From positions 1 through 34,637 of the forward strand of contig JAKSRM010000016.1 of NCBI GenBank assembly GCA_024403615.1: 34,637 bases of DNA, given 5' to 3'. The notes below the pieces were generated by a model that was not told the DNA's origin, searched no databases, and worked only from the letters and a program-made list of their open reading frames with translations. Source of the DNA: Lachnospiraceae bacterium (GTDB taxonomy: Bacteria > Bacillota > Clostridia > Lachnospirales > Lachnospiraceae). Positions 8,262-34,637 of the stretch are shown here, piece by piece. Positions within the stretch are counted from its first letter, which is position 1. Each line of letters starts with the position of its first letter. A program made the translations under genes and the position numbers.

Positions 8262-8523
8262 TTGACTTCTTGCGATGTAGTGGTGGTTTGTCCACCTATG
8301 TCGAATGAATGCAAAAATTGGTGGATGGTTTTCGGTCATTTACCTTTATTTTTTTCTGTTTTAAGGATTTTGCCCCCCCTAGGCAAAGGATGCGTGAATT
8401 TTGGTGGACGATTTATGAAAAAAATGCCCACTAATTTTATTTATTTCATTCTATTGGTGGATAGTTCAATACTTTTTATTTTTTTGAAGGCAAAAACGTC
8501 CACCAAAATGATAGACAATGGGC

Positions 8524-8646
8524 ATTTGGTGGATGCTCATCCACAAAAAATAAAAGACATTGGCATTTGGTGGATGTTCATTCACTAAAAATAAAAAACA
8601 TTGGCATCTTAGTGGATGCTCATCCACTAAAAATAAAAAAGTTTCC
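8524..8646. repeat. 41-bp tandem repeat array with palindromic core
   Basis: Three contiguous 41-bp units (8524-8564, 8565-8605, 8606-8646). Units 1 and 3 contain GTGGATGCTCATCCAC, an inverted repeat of 7 bp arms with a 2-bp centre; unit 2 has GTGGATGTTCATTCAC. Each is followed by an A-rich tract (AAAAATAAAA) and, in the first two, ACATTGGC. There are no variable spacers, so it is not a CRISPR. Confidence 0.9.
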
Positions 8647-17001: not shown

Positions 17002-17493
17002 GGGCTCGTTTTTGTTTATGTGCAGACAAATTTCCTCCCTCATGCCTCACTTTTATCTATGTACAAAACAAATTTCCTCCCTCATGCCTCACTTTTGTAC
17101 ATGTACATACAAGTTTAAAAAACAGTGAATATGAAATCCGTGTTTTACCCTGATAAATTTCTAAAAAAACCCAATTATTGTACATGGAGAGCTCATTTCT
17201 AATATAGTGAACATGTTTTATCGCATTTTATATACACTATTTTTCTGAACGGCCTCATGTGTACAAAAAACGGCGTTTTTTATTGTTTTTTGCCAAAATG
17301 ACGGCATTTTCATATGCACTATTTTCTATTCTGCCAGTATATGTACAAAAATTCAAAAAACGGCCCAAATTTTGCGGTTAAGTGCTGATAATCGTTAAAT
17401 TTCTGCTATTCACCATCCACACATGCACATATCTTTCATGCACACGCATCACTGACTTATTTCTCGTAGCCACGATTCACTTTCGTCGCTAAT
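17002..17493. other. Non-coding repeat field downstream of orphan gene 2
   Basis: About 490 bp, AT-rich, without a credible ORF. It holds a two-unit 42-bp repeat (17027-17110) and repeated TGTACA words (near 17060, 17097, 17103, 17177, 17258 and 17341), several followed by AAAAA and ACGGC. The TGTACA core is shared with the array at the right edge of the window. Confidence 0.7.
17027..17110. repeat. 42-bp tandem repeat, two units
   Basis: Units at 17027-17068 and 17069-17110. Both begin with the 28-bp identical block running from CAAATTTCCTCC to CCTCACTTTT and end with a TGTACA-containing tail. Confidence 0.9.
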
Positions 17494-17736: not shown

Positions 17737-20700
17737 TTAGTGGCAAACTTTGCATGCGCCATAGCCATGTGAAATGGCTTCATCATAGGTAATCATTCTT
17801 GCGGTGCTTGTCAGCGTTGGGCACCATTCTTCATGGTATTTGGATCCAGTTGCTGTAACGTAAACTACGCGCTGCCACTGTGCATACAGGTATACGGATG
17901 CGCCATCGGTCTTGCTCAAGTTCTTAACAGTTGCACCATTTGCGTAAGATTTGCCACTTCCGTCCTTCTTGGTATTCCATCCAATGAACTGATAGCCTTT
18001 TCTTGTGTAAGTATTGGACTTCAGGGTGTAGGATGTTCCATACTTTCTGGAGGTCATGCTTGCCATCGCCTTGAAGTTCGGATCACCGCTGTAATCATAG
18101 TTCGGGCTGAATACGATCTTGTAAGTATTTACTCTCCACTGTGCATACAGGTATACGGAACCACCGTTGGTAGAAGTCAGGTTCTTGAACTCTGCTGCAT
18201 TTGCATAAGATGTTCCGCTTCCGTCTCTCTTTGTATTCCATCCGGTAAAGGTGTATCCAGTTCTTGTATAGGTGTTAGCTGACAGATTATAAGTCTCGCC
18301 ATATACACGGCCAGTCATGCTTGGCATAGCCTTGAAACCAGATACATTGCTGTAATCGTAGTTTGGGCTAAATACAACTTTGTAAGTATTTAATGCCCAC
18401 TGTGCATACAGGTATACAGATGCACCATTGGTTGCGGTCAGGTTCTTAACGCTTGCACCATCTTTATAAGATTTGCCGCTTCCGTCTTTCTTTGTGTTCC
18501 ATCCAACGAAATGATAGCCTTTTCTAGCATAAATATTGGCTGTCAAAGTATACGCAACATCATACTTTCTGCCCGTCATGCTAGCCATGGCCTTGAAGTT
18601 CGTATCTTTGCTGTAATCATAGTTCGGGCTGAATACGATCTTGTAAGTATTTACTTTCCACTGAGCGTACAGATAAACAGTTCCGTTATTTGTAGAGGTC
18701 AGGTTCTTGATTGCTGCACCCTCTGCATAAGCTGTTCCGCTTCCGTCTCTCTTTGTGTTCCATCCAGTAAAGGTATATCCGGTTCTTGCATAAGTATTTG
18801 CAGACAGATTATAGCTTGTGTCATATGCTACATCCGTCATGCTAGGCATTACTACAAAGTTCGGATCGTTTTTGTATTCATAGTTCGGGCTGAATGCTAC
18901 ACGATAGGTATTTGGAGCCCACTGTGCATACAGGTAAGCTGTCGCACCATTGGTTGCTGTCAGATTCTGAACAGATGCCTTATCTGCATAAGATTCTCCG
19001 CTGCCGTCTCTCTTTGTATTCCATCCAGTGAAATGGTAGCCTTTTCTAGCATATGTATTAGCAGTCAAAGTATAAGCTGTGTCATACTTTCTGGAGGTCA
19101 TGCTAGCCATTGCCTTGAAGTTCGCATCCTTGCTGTAATCATAGTTTGGGCTGAATGCGATCTTATAAGTATTTGGTGTCCATTTTGCATAGAAGGTAAC
19201 ATTGCTATTTGTATTTGCAGCAATGGTTGTTACTTTCGTTTTGAAAGAAGCATCCTTGTACCAACCAGCGAAAGTGCAGCCTTCACGTGTAGGATTCTGC
19301 AATGTAATTTCAAGATTATTCTTGATAAGTCCCGTTGGGTTGCCTGGATCATTTGTTCCGCCATTTAATACGTAAGTAACCTTATAATCAATTGCAGGAA
19401 GTGTTACCTCATCCAGTGTAGCTACCGCTGTTGCTTCACGATCAAAGAACAAGTTTCCACATTCATTGCAGATATAGTAAGTAATATGTCCTGGTCTATA
19501 ACCAGTAGCCTCTAAAGCACTGATCTCTACAATATGGTTGTGCTGGCATTCCGGCGCATAAGTTAAATAAATATCCAGTGTATCCGAAGCCTCTTTTTCT
19601 GTAAACTGAGCGCCCCAATAATAGGTTTCTCCAGCTTCTACATCGGCGCAAGCATACAAAATTCCATCGTCACTAGCAAATTTGTTCTTCCACTGTGATT
19701 CCGTTCCAAAATATCCATATAATTTTTGTCCACAGTTATTGGAGGAAAGAATATATCCACCAGATTTTTCCGGTACAAATTTGATATAAGTAATATCTTC
19801 ACCGGAAACGTATACCGACAGAGGCTCATTTACAAAGATTTCTAATTCAATGGCTGATCCACACTCGTCGCAGATTCCATTTTCATCCGCATCCGTATGT
19901 GGTAATCTTGGAATGATTTCGTGACCATCTAAATATTCTCCACAGTCATTGCAATATAAACCTGCTGTATAGCCTGGAGTGCTGCAAGATGGGCTTACTG
20001 CTTCGGTATCAATAAGGTCTTTATGTTTGCAGTATGCTGGATCTTCTACGACTTCCATATCAACGGAAGCTGTAGCGCCCATATATTTTACTGTTAATGG
20101 ATAGGTCCAGCCAGCATTTAACTCCCAAAAATCTGGATCCACGCCGATATGATACTCAATAGAATGTCTGGCTCTCGCATAGACATCGTAGTTATTTGAA
20201 AGGCTGTCTCCGTAGATATATGGATCCAGGAAGAATTTTGTAAAGGACTCGCCATTGAATTCCATTACGGAATCATTAAATCGAGGGTCGCACTCTAAAG
20301 CTTTTGTTGTACCGTCGGAATAGGTTACGTATACTGGTATACTTTGTGCGATTGCCATATCAATTGCAGGATCTTCTAAGTAAGCATTTGAATCAAGTAC
20401 GGTAATAGGGTCCTCCACGCTGATACTTAATACAGGATTTTCAACAACATTAATATTTATAGAAGAATTATAGGTAACTGGAGAATGCTCTTCTTCGTTA
20501 AAATCTAATTGAATTTCATGAGCATTATTTCCAATTTCTTCTGCAACATAAGCGCCATCGTAAATAGGAAAGCCATCTAAAGAAAGACCGTACTCACTAA
20601 AGAGAACTTCGCCTAATTGAGCATAAGAATTGTTATAGATATATGGTTCATAACCAAAGTCGTAATAAACAACGGTTCCATCGGCCAGAGTTACATTTGC

Positions 20701-21426
20701 GCCGATACCGGTCCAATAAGTATCAATTCCACAAATAACATCGTGGGCATTGAAAAACTCAATGGCTACAATTTCATCCCTAAAAGGATCAAACTCCTGC
20801 ATCAATGTTTTGCATACATCGCAGAAGTTGTCTTCATTTTCATCGGTATGTGGTAACTGAGCGATTTCTTCATGACCAGAAATAAATGTGTCACAGTCTA
20901 AGCAGTAAACGCCCTCTGTGTAACCTGGAGCCTGACAAGTCGGCTCTATAACGGCATCCTCTATTACCTGGCTGTGCAGACAATTGGCTGGATTAATCAG
21001 AGAGACTGTGATTTCTTGTGGCCCATTGTCTCCATATGAGCCGACGGCATAATAGTAAGTCTGTCCGGCTTCTAATTCCGCGGTCAGCTTGAAACCCAAA
21101 TCATATCCACCGTCATCATCAAAAGCAAGTTCCTGCTTCTCTTCATCAAGAAGGAATGCATACGGATCACAATTCAAATCAAAATCTGTTTCTGATTTAA
21201 AAGTGTAGGTTGCTGTTTCCTCAGGGATGAATTTGAAATAAGCATGTTCTTCTCCTTCAACCTGAATCGTCAAAGAGTCCCCTACGAAAATCTCAGTAGC
21301 AGATACTTCGAGACTCTCTCCCAATTCAACTTCATCCGCAAATACTGTCGTGCCCATGGTTGGCAATAACGTCAAAGCCATGAAGAATGTCAGTATCCAA
21401 GCTGATAATTTCTTGAATCGTTTCAT
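17737..21426 (-). CDS. Secreted multi-domain protein with InlB-type (Listeria-Bacteroides) repeats
   Basis: A 1229-residue exported protein. It starts with a signal peptide (MKRFKKLSAWILTFFMALTL, cleavage near VFADE). The middle alternates beta-sandwich-like segments with three Cys-rich modules beginning CLHS, CKHK and CQHN, the first two containing CxxC pairs and an LPHTDxxEDNxCDxC signature that may bind zinc. Residues about 680-750 hold one classical InlB repeat (FAGWYKD, FYAKW). Residues 751-1184 hold five 87-residue repeats (FSPNY, GYxFxGWNTKxDGSG, YLYAQW). The end matches a common Lachnospiraceae module (VYVTATGSKYHxxxC, ACKVCH). No LPxTG motif or C-terminal anchor is seen, so it is probably released or held by non-covalent contacts. 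Start support: AAGGAGAG eleven bases upstream. A surface or adhesion role is inference. Confidence 0.92.
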   Translation of the reverse strand: MKRFKKLSAWILTFFMALTLLPTMGTTVFADEVELGESLEVSATEIFVGDSLTIQVEGEEHAYFKFIPEETATYTFKSETDFDLNCDPYAFLLDEEKQELAFDDDGGYDLGFKLTAELEAGQTYYYAVGSYGDNGPQEITVSLINPANCLHSQVIEDAVIEPTCQAPGYTEGVYCLDCDTFISGHEEIAQLPHTDENEDNFCDVCKTLMQEFDPFRDEIVAIEFFNAHDVICGIDTYWTGIGANVTLADGTVVYYDFGYEPYIYNNSYAQLGEVLFSEYGLSLDGFPIYDGAYVAEEIGNNAHEIQLDFNEEEHSPVTYNSSININVVENPVLSISVEDPITVLDSNAYLEDPAIDMAIAQSIPVYVTYSDGTTKALECDPRFNDSVMEFNGESFTKFFLDPYIYGDSLSNNYDVYARARHSIEYHIGVDPDFWELNAGWTYPLTVKYMGATASVDMEVVEDPAYCKHKDLIDTEAVSPSCSTPGYTAGLYCNDCGEYLDGHEIIPRLPHTDADENGICDECGSAIELEIFVNEPLSVYVSGEDITYIKFVPEKSGGYILSSNNCGQKLYGYFGTESQWKNKFASDDGILYACADVEAGETYYWGAQFTEKEASDTLDIYLTYAPECQHNHIVEISALEATGYRPGHITYYICNECGNLFFDREATAVATLDEVTLPAIDYKVTYVLNGGTNDPGNPTGLIKNNLEITLQNPTREGCTFAGWYKDASFKTKVTTIAANTNSNVTFYAKWTPNTYKIAFSPNYDYSKDANFKAMASMTSRKYDTAYTLTANTYARKGYHFTGWNTKRDGSGESYADKASVQNLTATNGATAYLYAQWAPNTYRVAFSPNYEYKNDPNFVVMPSMTDVAYDTSYNLSANTYARTGYTFTGWNTKRDGSGTAYAEGAAIKNLTSTNNGTVYLYAQWKVNTYKIVFSPNYDYSKDTNFKAMASMTGRKYDVAYTLTANIYARKGYHFVGWNTKKDGSGKSYKDGASVKNLTATNGASVYLYAQWALNTYKVVFSPNYDYSNVSGFKAMPSMTGRVYGETYNLSANTYTRTGYTFTGWNTKRDGSGTSYANAAEFKNLTSTNGGSVYLYAQWRVNTYKIVFSPNYDYSGDPNFKAMASMTSRKYGTSYTLKSNTYTRKGYQFIGWNTKKDGSGKSYANGATVKNLSKTDGASVYLYAQWQRVVYVTATGSKYHEEWCPTLTSTARMITYDEAISHGYGACKVCH
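17875..19176 (-). repeat. Five 261-bp in-gene repeats in A-B-A-B-A order
   Basis: Five 87-codon units, contiguous. Units 1, 3 and 5 share AMASMTxRKY and RKGYxF; units 2 and 4 share MPSMT and RTGYTFTGW. The alternation implies that a two-unit block of 522 bp was duplicated. Confidence 0.9.
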
Positions 21427-30629: not shown

Positions 30630-32402
30630 TTAGTTTTCGCTTTTTGCTTCCCACTTAGCTTCCCAGCCAAAATGGTCCGTATGAAGCAGGTGATGTGACA
30701 GTTCGGAACATGGTGCTTTCAAGAAGTCTGCATACAGGGTCTGAACTTCTGGGTTCTCATGAGAGAATCGTAACACGTTCTTTGCGTCGTAATTATAAAC
30801 AACCTTTGCACGATCTGCTGCCCGCTCCTCGTTATAGTGGATTGGCTGTCCGCCGCCACCTACGCAACCGCCTGGGCAAGCCATAACTTCTACAAAGTCA
30901 TATTCTACTTCGCCATCTTTAATAGCGTTCAAAAGCTTTCTGGTATTTCCAAGGCTGTTAACAACTGCTGCCTTCACGATGTTTCCGGCTACATTGTACT
31001 CTGCCTCAACCCATGGTTTGTCGGAGTCGGAAGCTCTTACGGCCTTGAAGGTTTCGTCTGCATTTGGATTCTCGCCAGTCAGGATGTAATAGCAGGTTCT
31101 TAAAGCTGCTTCCATAACACCGCCAGTAGCTCCGAAAATAACGGCTGCACCAGAGCCGGTTCCTAATGGAGAATCAAACTCTTCTTCCTCAATAGCTGCT
31201 ACGTTAATATTTTTCGCCTTGATCAGTCTGCATAATTCTCTTGTTGTAAGAACGCAGTCCACATCTTTTACTCCTTCTGCAGCATCGTTAATGTTTGGAA
31301 TATCGATTTCTGCCTTCTTCGCAGAACATGGCATAATAGATACGCAATAAATGTTCTCCGGAGCAACGCCGATTTTCTCTGCAAAGTAGGTCTTGGTTAC
31401 AGCGCCAAACATCTGCTGTGGAGACTTCGCAGTGGAAAGATTTCCTGTGAATTCTGGAAACTGGGTCTTTACGAATCTTACCCAGCCAGGACAGCAGGAA
31501 GTGAACATTGGCCACTGGTACTGATCTTTATGAGTAAATCTCTCCAGGAATTCTGTTCCCTCTTCCATAATGGTCAGATCCGCTGTAAAGTTTGTATCAA
31601 ATACATAATCAAAGCCGATTCTTCTTAATACCGCTGCCAGAACTTTTTCGTTTGCCTGTTCTGGGGAAAGTCCGAATTCCTCGCCCCATGCAGTTCTTAC
31701 TGCAGGCGCAATTTGTACAACGGTTACTTTTTCCGGATTATTTAAAGCTCCGTTAAATCCGCCAACTTTGGAAATATCGTTGCGGACAGAAAGAGCGTTG
31801 GTTGGGCAATGAGTTACGCACTGACCGCAGAAAACGCATCCAGACTCAGAAATCTTTACATGATTCTTTACGCCAACGGAAGTATGAGTACCGGAACCGA
31901 TCATATCCCAGATATTTACGGTCTGTACTTTTTCACACTCGGATACGCAACGGTAGCACTTAATACATTTGCTTTCGTCACGGATAATCGGAACATTCTT
32001 CTCCCATTCGATCAGAATGTAATCGTTTTTATAAGAATCGGTGCTTCTAGCGCCCATGTCATAGGCAACTTTTTTCAGCTGGCAGGTTTCATTTCTTTCG
32101 CAGGAAGGACATTCTACCCGGTGCTGGCTTAACAGCAGCTCTACGTTGGTTCTTCTTGCTTCGAAAACTCTTGCTGTGTTGGTATGGACAACCATGCCCT
32201 CGGTACATACGTTGTCGCAGGATGCAACCAGACGATCGATCCCTTCAATTTCTACCAGACAAGCTCTGCAGGCACCAATTTCATTGACACCTTTCAGATA
32301 ACATAAAGTTGGGATTTTAACGCCAACCAGTTTTGCTGCTTCTAAGATGGAGGTTCCTTCTTCGACCTGGACATTTTTACCGTCGATAATTAAATTTACC
32401 AT
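30630..32402 (-). CDS. hydA: [FeFe] hydrogenase catalytic subunit (HydA type)
   Basis: This cytoplasmic enzyme interconverts protons and H2. The 590-residue product has the domain order of multi-cluster [FeFe] hydrogenases: an N-terminal 2Fe-2S domain (Cys34, 45, 48, 62), a His-ligated 4Fe-4S site (His94, Cys98, 101, 107), two 4Fe-4S sites (Cys146/149/152/156 and Cys189/192/195/199) and the H-cluster domain with TSCCPGW (Cys303-304), MPCSAKKAE (Cys359) and MACPGGCVGGGGQP (Cys509, Cys513). All H-cluster ligands are intact. Its start overlaps the end of the upstream flavoprotein gene by 7 bp, and GGAGG lies within that gene. The pairing suggests electrons pass between NAD(P)H and H2 through the flavoprotein. 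No hydEFG maturase genes are in the window. Confidence 0.96.
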   Translation of the reverse strand: MVNLIIDGKNVQVEEGTSILEAAKLVGVKIPTLCYLKGVNEIGACRACLVEIEGIDRLVASCDNVCTEGMVVHTNTARVFEARRTNVELLLSQHRVECPSCERNETCQLKKVAYDMGARSTDSYKNDYILIEWEKNVPIIRDESKCIKCYRCVSECEKVQTVNIWDMIGSGTHTSVGVKNHVKISESGCVFCGQCVTHCPTNALSVRNDISKVGGFNGALNNPEKVTVVQIAPAVRTAWGEEFGLSPEQANEKVLAAVLRRIGFDYVFDTNFTADLTIMEEGTEFLERFTHKDQYQWPMFTSCCPGWVRFVKTQFPEFTGNLSTAKSPQQMFGAVTKTYFAEKIGVAPENIYCVSIMPCSAKKAEIDIPNINDAAEGVKDVDCVLTTRELCRLIKAKNINVAAIEEEEFDSPLGTGSGAAVIFGATGGVMEAALRTCYYILTGENPNADETFKAVRASDSDKPWVEAEYNVAGNIVKAAVVNSLGNTRKLLNAIKDGEVEYDFVEVMACPGGCVGGGGQPIHYNEERAADRAKVVYNYDAKNVLRFSHENPEVQTLYADFLKAPCSELSHHLLHTDHFGWEAKWEAKSEN

Positions 32403-34228
32403 GCTTTACGACCTCCTTTGATTATTCCACAGTTAAAGTGGTCACACCGTAAGCATCTGCCGGCTTCCTGTTTTGCTTCCTTATCGGTCATGGCTTTTTC
32501 CATGAGCAGGAAGTCATGTTTTCTTTCTTCTGGCAGTCTTTCGGACATTTCGACTCTTCCGCAGTATTCTCTGTTCTTCAGTTCTACTTCCGGAATTTCG
32601 ATATCTCTTTGAACTACGTGATGGTAGCCTAAATATTCATCAATATTTGCTGCTGCAACTTTTCCGGCTGCAATGGCTAAGATTGCGGTTTTTGGTCCAG
32701 TTACACAGTCGCCGCCGGCGAATACGCCAGGGATTTCGTCGATGGACGTTACGTTATCGGCCTTGATCAGTCCTCTCTCCAGAGGAATACCGGTCTCGTC
32801 AAAGCCGGAAGTATCGGTTCCCTGACCGATGGCCTTAATAACAACATCGCATTCAAAACGTACATCATCCATACCAGAATCTACCGGATTCATACGGCCG
32901 TGTTTAATCTTGCTAACCATGTTTGGTCTAGCCCAGAAGGCAACAACTTTGTTATTTTCGTCGGTTTCAATTTTCAGAGGAGCATGAAGGTCGATTAAGT
33001 GAGCGCCTTCCGCGATAGCTCCCTCGATTTCTTCTGGAAGAGCGGTCATATCTTCCCGTCTTCTTCTATAAATAATAGATACGGATTTTGCTCCACAGCG
33101 GATTGCGGAACGAGTGCAGTCCATAGCAACGTTTCCGCCGCCAACAACGCATACGTTCTTTCCGGTGAAGTCTACCATTTCCTCATCACCAATTTTTCCA
33201 AGGAAATCAACTGCAGAGATGACACCCTCTGCGTCTTCTCCTTCAATGCCAATATCTTTTGCCTGATGCGCACCGATGGAAACGTAAACAGCATCATACT
33301 GTTTTCTTAAGTTGTCGATAGAATATTCGCCAACGCCTACGTTGGTGTTCAGCTTCGCTTCCACGCCGGTGGAAAGAATGGCTTCAATATCTCTCTTCAG
33401 ATAATTTCTAGGAAGTCGGTAAGCTGGAATACCGTAAACCAGCATTCCGCCTAACTGTTTATGTCTTTCGAATACCGTTACCTGATGACCCATGAGTTGC
33501 AAATAGAACGCAACCGTAAGTCCGGAAGGTCCACCACCAACTACGGCGATCTTCTTTCCAGTTTCTGGAAGACGCTCCGGAGGAATAACTCTGGTAGCCT
33601 TTTCAATGGCGGTACGTTTTAAGCCGCGGATGTTTACTGGCGCATCTAACAGGCTTCTTCTGCATCGAGCCTCGCATGGATGCTCACAGATTAAAGCACA
33701 TACAACTGGGAATGGATTATCGTTGGTGATTAATTTAACAGCGTCTTCATAACGTTCGTCATTTACTAATGCGATATATCCCGGAATATTTACATGAGCT
33801 GGGCAATGGGCAACGCAAGGAATGCTGTCCGTACGCTCAGCCAGACATACATGATTTTCAATATGTGAAACAAAATCGTCGCGGAATCCTTTAATTGCTT
33901 TCGCAACCATTTTCGCAGCTTCGGAACCGATAACGCAATCGGCGGACTCTGTAATAATGTCTGCCAGGCGTTCGATTTCATCAACAGTTTCTAAAGTAGC
34001 TTTCTCCTGAAGAACAGAGTCTAACAGGTAGCTCAGTTGTGGAAGTCCGGAACGGCAGGAAGTACATTTGCCACAGCTCTGGGTCATATATAATCTTAAA
34101 AAAGCTCCCGTTATATCAATGGGGCATGTGTCCTGAGGGCTGAATTTCAAATGGTGTTCCATGTAGTTATAAATGCCTTCAAGGGTGGATTCTACTTGAT
34201 TTTGTGTAGACAATGTTAGTCTGCTCAT
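32396..34228 (-). CDS. NuoF-like/GltD-like iron-sulfur flavoprotein oxidoreductase
   Basis: A 610-residue fusion. Residues 1-115 match the 4Fe-4S end of NuoF/HydB proteins (SCGKCTSCRSGL with Cys52, 55, 58 and Cys98), without the FMN domain. Residues about 125-580 match the small subunit of glutamate synthase (GltD) and related NAD(P)H:acceptor oxidoreductases: Cys clusters CVAHCP (138, 142) and CALICEHPCEARC (177, 181, 185, 189), an FAD site GGGPSG (231-236), a nucleotide site VVGGGNVAMD (361-370) and the late FAGGDCVTGP. The end has a further CLRCDHFNC. In databases such GltD-like proteins accompany one group of [FeFe] hydrogenases. Here it is translationally coupled to hydA, so it is likely its NAD(P)H-linked partner. 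A glutamate synthase role is unlikely since no gltB is present. Start support: GGAGGGG nine bases upstream. Confidence 0.92.
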   Translation of the reverse strand: MSRLTLSTQNQVESTLEGIYNYMEHHLKFSPQDTCPIDITGAFLRLYMTQSCGKCTSCRSGLPQLSYLLDSVLQEKATLETVDEIERLADIITESADCVIGSEAAKMVAKAIKGFRDDFVSHIENHVCLAERTDSIPCVAHCPAHVNIPGYIALVNDERYEDAVKLITNDNPFPVVCALICEHPCEARCRRSLLDAPVNIRGLKRTAIEKATRVIPPERLPETGKKIAVVGGGPSGLTVAFYLQLMGHQVTVFERHKQLGGMLVYGIPAYRLPRNYLKRDIEAILSTGVEAKLNTNVGVGEYSIDNLRKQYDAVYVSIGAHQAKDIGIEGEDAEGVISAVDFLGKIGDEEMVDFTGKNVCVVGGGNVAMDCTRSAIRCGAKSVSIIYRRRREDMTALPEEIEGAIAEGAHLIDLHAPLKIETDENNKVVAFWARPNMVSKIKHGRMNPVDSGMDDVRFECDVVIKAIGQGTDTSGFDETGIPLERGLIKADNVTSIDEIPGVFAGGDCVTGPKTAILAIAAGKVAAANIDEYLGYHHVVQRDIEIPEVELKNREYCGRVEMSERLPEERKHDFLLMEKAMTDKEAKQEAGRCLRCDHFNCGIIKGGRKAW

Positions 34229-34374: not shown

Positions 34375-34637
34375 GCGAAAACATTGAGATGTGTACAGCC
34401 CCTCTTGCCCCTTTCTGCGAAATTGTTGAGATATGTACACCTCTTCTTTCCCATTTCCGCAAAATAGTTGAGATATGTACAAAAAGGCATGTACATATCT
34501 CAACTATTTGTGCAGCGGCCAATAACTTGCCTGTACATATCTCAACTTTTTGCGCAGTAGCCAATAACCTGCCCGTACATATCTCAACTTTTTGCGCAGC
34601 AGCCAATAACCTGCCCGTACATATCTCAACTTTTTGC
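34375..34637. repeat. Inverted array of 42-bp repeats at the right edge
   Basis: Left half: units at 34375, 34417 and 34459 with core GTTGAGATATGTACA. Right half: the same core reversed, TGTACATATCTCAACT, in units at 34490, 34532, 34574 and 34616, where the window ends. The period is 42 bp in both halves. The two halves meet in a 19-bp perfect inverted repeat (34463-34481 and 34490-34508) around an 8-nt loop. The right-hand units also share GCCAATAACCTGCC; the left-hand intervening bases are pyrimidine-rich and more varied. No real gene is seen. Confidence 0.93.

Follow-up and report, generated by a model that had tools for sequence, protein, structure and literature searches.

A dispersed head-to-head repeat array in a Lachnospiraceae genome, likely a nuclease-linked element without its gene

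In the REPIN/RAYT system, short repeats in inverted pairs are dispersed in extragenic DNA and found near a specific gene, and they are proposed to be non-autonomous copies (PMC3116915). For protein binding to inverted repeats, another study reports that the antitoxin AbiEi binds two 23-bp inverted repeats cooperatively and that its relative Rv2827c does so with negative cooperativity (PMC7319586). In this work, we analyzed a contig of 34,637 bp from a Lachnospiraceae bacterium (JAKSRM010000016.1 of assembly GCA_024403615.1; this whole stretch is hereafter the window) and focused on the array of 42-bp repeats at its right end (34375..34637). Similar arrays are dispersed in this genome and also occur beside genes for a predicted nuclease. 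We interpret the window array as a solitary and likely non-autonomous copy of an element tied to a nuclease gene, an arrangement that parallels REPIN/RAYT with an unrelated enzyme.

The visible part of the window array contains seven sites arranged head-to-head, with three on the minus strand in the left half and four on the plus strand in the right half, spaced by 42 bp within each half. The sites have a common core, GTACATATCTC, followed by a T-tract. The left sites are located at 34382..34396 (GTACACATCTCAATG, three mismatches, T-tract outward; the core of this outermost site reads GTACACATCTC), 34424..34438 (GTACATATCTCAACA), and 34466..34480 (GTACATATCTCAACT), and the right sites at 34491..34505, 34533..34547, 34575..34589, and 34617..34631. 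A central spacer of 10 bp (34481..34490), or one helical turn, separates two GTAC tips, and the centre forms a 20-bp perfect inverted repeat (34462-34481 / 34490-34509). Compared with a reference unit, the left units have 76% and 62% identity over 42 bp, versus 90-92% over 63 nt for the right units. An earlier note made from the sequence alone had described at least seven units with a 42-bp period in opposite orientations, a less conserved left half, and a perfect hairpin of 19 bp; the present analysis confirms this observation. It had also set the array apart from a CRISPR, and rightly so, as the linkers in the right half are alike and the units are inverted across the centre.

The window ends at a contig end. 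Its last 97 bp reappear, reversed and with 99% identity over 97 bp, where contig C4 ends on the right, so the array, with its fourth right site at the edge, appears to continue rightward into C4. The C4 part stops near the terminator behind the gene after rplJ, which, judged by its sequence rather than by a family call, is probably rplL. Because the units are near-identical, their number cannot be obtained from the assembly.

In its own genome (G000; 1.67 Mb in 29 contigs, 87% complete), the window core was matched 90 times when two mismatches were allowed, with a few units counted twice through overlapping contig ends; the reversed pattern gave no match. These matches make up 16 dispersed head-to-head arrays when each of three pairs of overlapping contig ends is taken as one array: window/C4 end; C1 at 47, 151, and 170 kb; C3/C16; C4 at 0.3, 7.4, and 17.5 kb; C5; C9/C10; C12; C15; C23 at 101 and 116 kb; C24; and C28. 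Beyond these, C23 carries an array at 17.9 kb whose core is related (GTACACAAGTG or similar), and a few sites stand alone. Some arrays appear to have been copied as units: L038 and L047 have 79% identity over 287 bp, and L042b, a solitary array, has its centre in common with the gene-side array L043. Among 61 genomes, the exact core pair is present in this one only. Searches for the exact pair in genome contigs and viral contigs, and for a degenerate pair in viral contigs, returned nothing. A relaxed 42-bp pattern matched nine of 397 genomes of the family, namely, this genome and eight others with a single match each, which we take as chance. The earlier note, which could see neither the genome-wide dispersal nor the tie to a nuclease gene, had considered that the repeat might be absent from relatives and from the rest of the genome. 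The exact core is indeed confined to this genome, but arrays built in the same way on other cores are widespread, and the 16 arrays contradict the second point. In this genome, six contig ends (C3, C4, C8, C9, C10, and C16) fall within arrays. Elements of this type therefore likely interrupt metagenome assemblies, and they may hide in other assemblies of this kind.

One window-type array directly follows a gene encoding a 341-aa protein. The family of this protein has a predicted AbiEi-like domain, with a match to the C-terminal-type domain only, and a predicted nuclease domain of the Vsr/I-Bth0305I type. Five residues (E196, D241, E252, H259, and D268) are invariant in 21 homologues of the nuclease and may map onto the E, D, H, D active-site motif. 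Each of the three nuclease homologues in this genome lies next to an array with a core of its own, and the periods of these arrays are 42.0, 41.2, and 51.7 bp.

This association extends to other genomes. We searched 750-bp flanks for arrays without presupposing a core (13-mers allowing three mismatches, a minimum of 2+2 sites, a gap of up to 200 bp between the halves, and periods of 28-64 bp). Arrays were found beside 22 of 34 Lachnospiraceae-type nuclease loci, which have 25 in all (15 located 3' and 10 located 5' of the gene), and beside four of 21 coriobacterial nuclease loci. The 34 loci include two pairs that are orthologues in two close genomes, and they exclude the contig-end fragment L228 and a few unfetched homologues. 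Markov resamples of the flanks gave arrays in one of 340 and eight of 210 cases, respectively. Among control loci at other genes of the same genus, some with flanks cut by contig ends, one of 29 had an array, and this was a real solitary array. A second finder with a fixed lattice of 41-43 bp gave scores of at least 4 at 11 of 25 loci versus one of 25 controls; one of these 11, L172, was rejected as a self-overlapping palindrome. Also rejected was a second open reading frame (ORF) of the same length beside an array of G005 (L093), which is unrelated to the nuclease. The core sequences of the other array families are unrelated to the window core. The pairing of gene and array is near certain. 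Literature searches, limited to open-access papers, turned up work on IS21, REPIN, EDxHD, and AbiEi but no account of this pairing among the entries listed.

If gene-side cores mark dispersed families, other arrays in a genome should carry the core that is read beside its nuclease gene. This prediction held in two cases, namely, the genus relative G008 and three Coriobacteria. The gene-side core of G008 has 41 sites in nine G008 loci, including the gene-side array, and all nine have the same centre length. Outside G008, this core gave nine single sites in six of 13 genomes (0-3 each), and the reversed pattern gave four. For Olsenella, Tractidigestivibacter, and a rumen relative, the core was read from the same three genomes in which it was counted, and these have 21, 22, and 51 sites; it has no site in five other coriobacterial genomes, and there was one control match. 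The 31 coriobacterial regions fetched have 2+2 sites each with a spacing of 39-41 bp, and three of them are gene-side; the centre is 115-117 bp in the 17 regions with an unambiguous scan. In addition, a solitary array (L124) that was met unprompted at a control locus in G002 carries the core of the gene-side array of G002. Gene-side and dispersed cores thus agree within the genome in four core families (window type, G008, G002, and Coriobacteria). In the coriobacterial arrays (L257-L287), the centres of about 116 bp often share inner motifs such as ACAACATATTGTG and seem to form at least two types; these motifs possibly represent a second binding site or a function inside the element.

The distances within the arrays follow the helical pitch of DNA. 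Among the 16 window-type arrays, the central tips are 10 bp (three arrays), 20 bp (four), 30 bp (one), 40 bp (three), or 41 bp (five) apart. None of 200,000 random draws was as concentrated on one helical phase as 11 of these centres, which were left after homologous-looking ones had been removed by judgement. The 25 gene-side arrays have periods of 31 bp (two), 40-42 bp (15), 50.5-51.7 bp (seven), and 62 bp (one), corresponding to three, four, five, and six turns of 10.2-10.4 bp. None of 200,000 uniform draws matched this distribution, a statistic that is optimistic because the four-turn arrays share ancestry; the absence of periods between the rungs is the stronger point. These patterns strongly support a suggestion of the earlier note, a binding array with its sites on the same face of the DNA, and imply a structured nucleoprotein complex. 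The same note had listed a structured RNA source, for which the perfect central inverted repeat may speak. No support for this was found, and we regard it as extremely unlikely: an Rfam scan of 20 array loci detected only tRNAs and an L10 leader, with no family at the arrays, and both the helical-turn quantisation and the core-only conservation point to DNA binding.

Similarly far-fetched is the possibility that the arrays are inside-out ends of a transposon of the IS21, Tn7, or Mu type. The TGTACA tips and multiple repeats resemble such ends, and IS21 ends have two repeats each (PMC10122671). However, these tips point to a centre without a gene body, the cores of other families are unrelated, and ten rve loci fetched from relatives lack a tandem motif. 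The rve domain (PF00665) has a match in six of 14 genomes of the genus but none in the window's own genome at 87% completeness.

Comparison with the closest genome, G004 (87% complete), revealed turnover. G004 lacks 12 of the 16 window-type arrays at the corresponding syntenic position and has two of them, and two are not comparable (L056 and L057); gain and loss are not distinguishable in this comparison. For nine of the 12 absent arrays, G004 has up to about 130 bp at this place, and at L043 and L045 the neighbouring coding DNA is missing as well. For the other three (the window array, L051, and L054), G004 has other DNA there. The neighbour of the window array, outside the element, is a NuoF-like hydrogenase subunit gene (32396..34228, minus strand) that adjoins an [FeFe] hydrogenase gene and has its start codon 147 bp from the array; its G004 orthologue (98% identical) has no array upstream. 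The two arrays present in G004 have changed cores (L042a and, judged from the left flank only, L041). Between the two genomes, orthologous nucleases with 87% and 91% identity are accompanied by an unchanged core, whereas the window-type nuclease has a best G004 homologue of 53% identity and the window core pair, at up to two mismatches, is absent from G004. One aligned empty site in Olsenella shows no target duplication by eye; apart from this site, array edges are mostly fuzzy.

These patterns bear on two explanations without mobility. First, the arrays may be chromosome-organising sites for bridging or segregation, with the nuclease-like protein being architectural. Their symmetry, helical phasing, and occurrence as 16 arrays across 1.67 Mb would suit such a role, but most positions are not kept in the closest genome and none of the candidate catalytic residues varies among 21 homologues, making this very unlikely. 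Second, the arrays may be operators of an AbiEi-like regulator or, with a hairpin and T-tract, terminators. None of 17 arrays in the window's own genome is between divergent genes according to crude ORF and tRNA calls, an array of G004 stands where this genome has an apparently ordinary terminator, and AbiEi itself binds inverted repeats of its promoter (PMC7319586). We nevertheless consider this quite improbable: the genes scanned around the arrays are mostly ordinary and unrelated housekeeping genes, other arrays sit beside an apparent terminator, and RNA hairpins would not need helical-turn periods.

Taken together, we favour, with some reservation, the reading that the window array represents the nuclease-linked array without its gene. 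It is likely bound by the nuclease, which likely also spreads it as a non-autonomous mobile element. Several nuclease molecules would line up along one face of the array DNA, in a symmetric arrangement around its centre. Their Vsr-like domain would then nick or cut the DNA, and repair or replication would copy the array, with or without the gene, to new intergenic places. Arrays would change as complete units are gained or lost and as the core and the specificity of the enzyme drift together. Mobilisation by the nuclease seems to us rather more probable than its opposite, and the recombination substrate proposed in the earlier note comes close to this reading. A different role would be that of a host defence or DNA-processing enzyme, which is held or directed by the arrays as selected host sites for self-marking, sequestration, or loading. 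The nuclease genes were not found in phages or viral contigs, there are as many as 51 core sites per genome, and a structured complex would fit such sites. On the other hand, PADLOC gave no match, and the absence of 12 of the 16 arrays from G004 and the copied units fit spread better, so host sites appear unlikely.

Lachnospiraceae and Coriobacteriia belong to the phyla Bacillota and Actinomycetota, respectively. The chances are about even that the arrays represent a new class of mobile elements in these two phyla, in which an AbiEi-fused nuclease of the Vsr/I-Bth0305I type mobilises arrays with periods of three, four, five, or six turns, and each lineage has its own site and gene-free arrays. 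If true, mobile repeats would have been invented a second time in bacteria, independently of REPIN/RAYT, from a nuclease with relatives among DNA repair and homing enzymes. In the approximately 25 gene-array pairs from Lachnospiraceae and Coriobacteriia, the protein and its presumed site differ together, which makes a recognition code testable. Furthermore, the ladder of 31, 41, 51, and 62 bp provides genomic evidence that whole-turn spacing is kept while sequence and spacing class change.

Other repeats were observed near the arrays or elsewhere in the window. A second dispersed repeat, AGCGACGAGGAAAGTGCA, often followed by TGACGACYGC, is located behind apparent terminators (L038:2755, L040:2859, and L042:7230 in the window's own genome; L114:1240 and L149:573 in G004) and adjoins arrays in the former genome; in the four loci scanned (all but L149), it had no Rfam match at the gathering threshold. 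Several arrays have a tRNA neighbourhood. Within the window, a 41-bp unit occurs three times in tandem at 8505-8640; every copy includes a palindrome similar to TGGTGGATG-CTCATCCACTA, and these repeats are unlike the head-to-head arrays. Two 42-bp direct repeats ending in TACATGTACA are located at 17026-17107, with a period equal to that of the array. An ORF of 1229 aa (17737-21426, minus strand) contains about five 261-bp tandem repeats (17875-19174) and is possibly a repetitive surface protein.

Among known systems, REPIN/RAYT is the nearest in logic, although its enzyme is unrelated. Like REPINs, the arrays are dispersed extragenic inverted repeats with a copy beside a linked gene. However, this gene encodes a predicted Vsr-type nuclease fold rather than a tyrosine (Y1, HUH) transposase, and each side of an array has several sites that are long, asymmetric, and spaced by three to six turns, whereas a REPIN has two REPs. 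The predicted fold of the catalytic domain matches that of I-Bth0305I and other EDxHD homing endonucleases and of Vsr, but the array nuclease is joined to an AbiEi-like domain, and its presumed site occurs in dispersed arrays with which it is associated. Compared with AbiEi antitoxins, the protein matches the C-terminal domain, in fusion with a nuclease, and the arrays occur genome-wide rather than at one promoter. Finally, in contrast to Tn7 (TnsA), IS21, and Mu, there is no rve-type DDE partner in the window's own genome, and the sites face inward to an empty centre.
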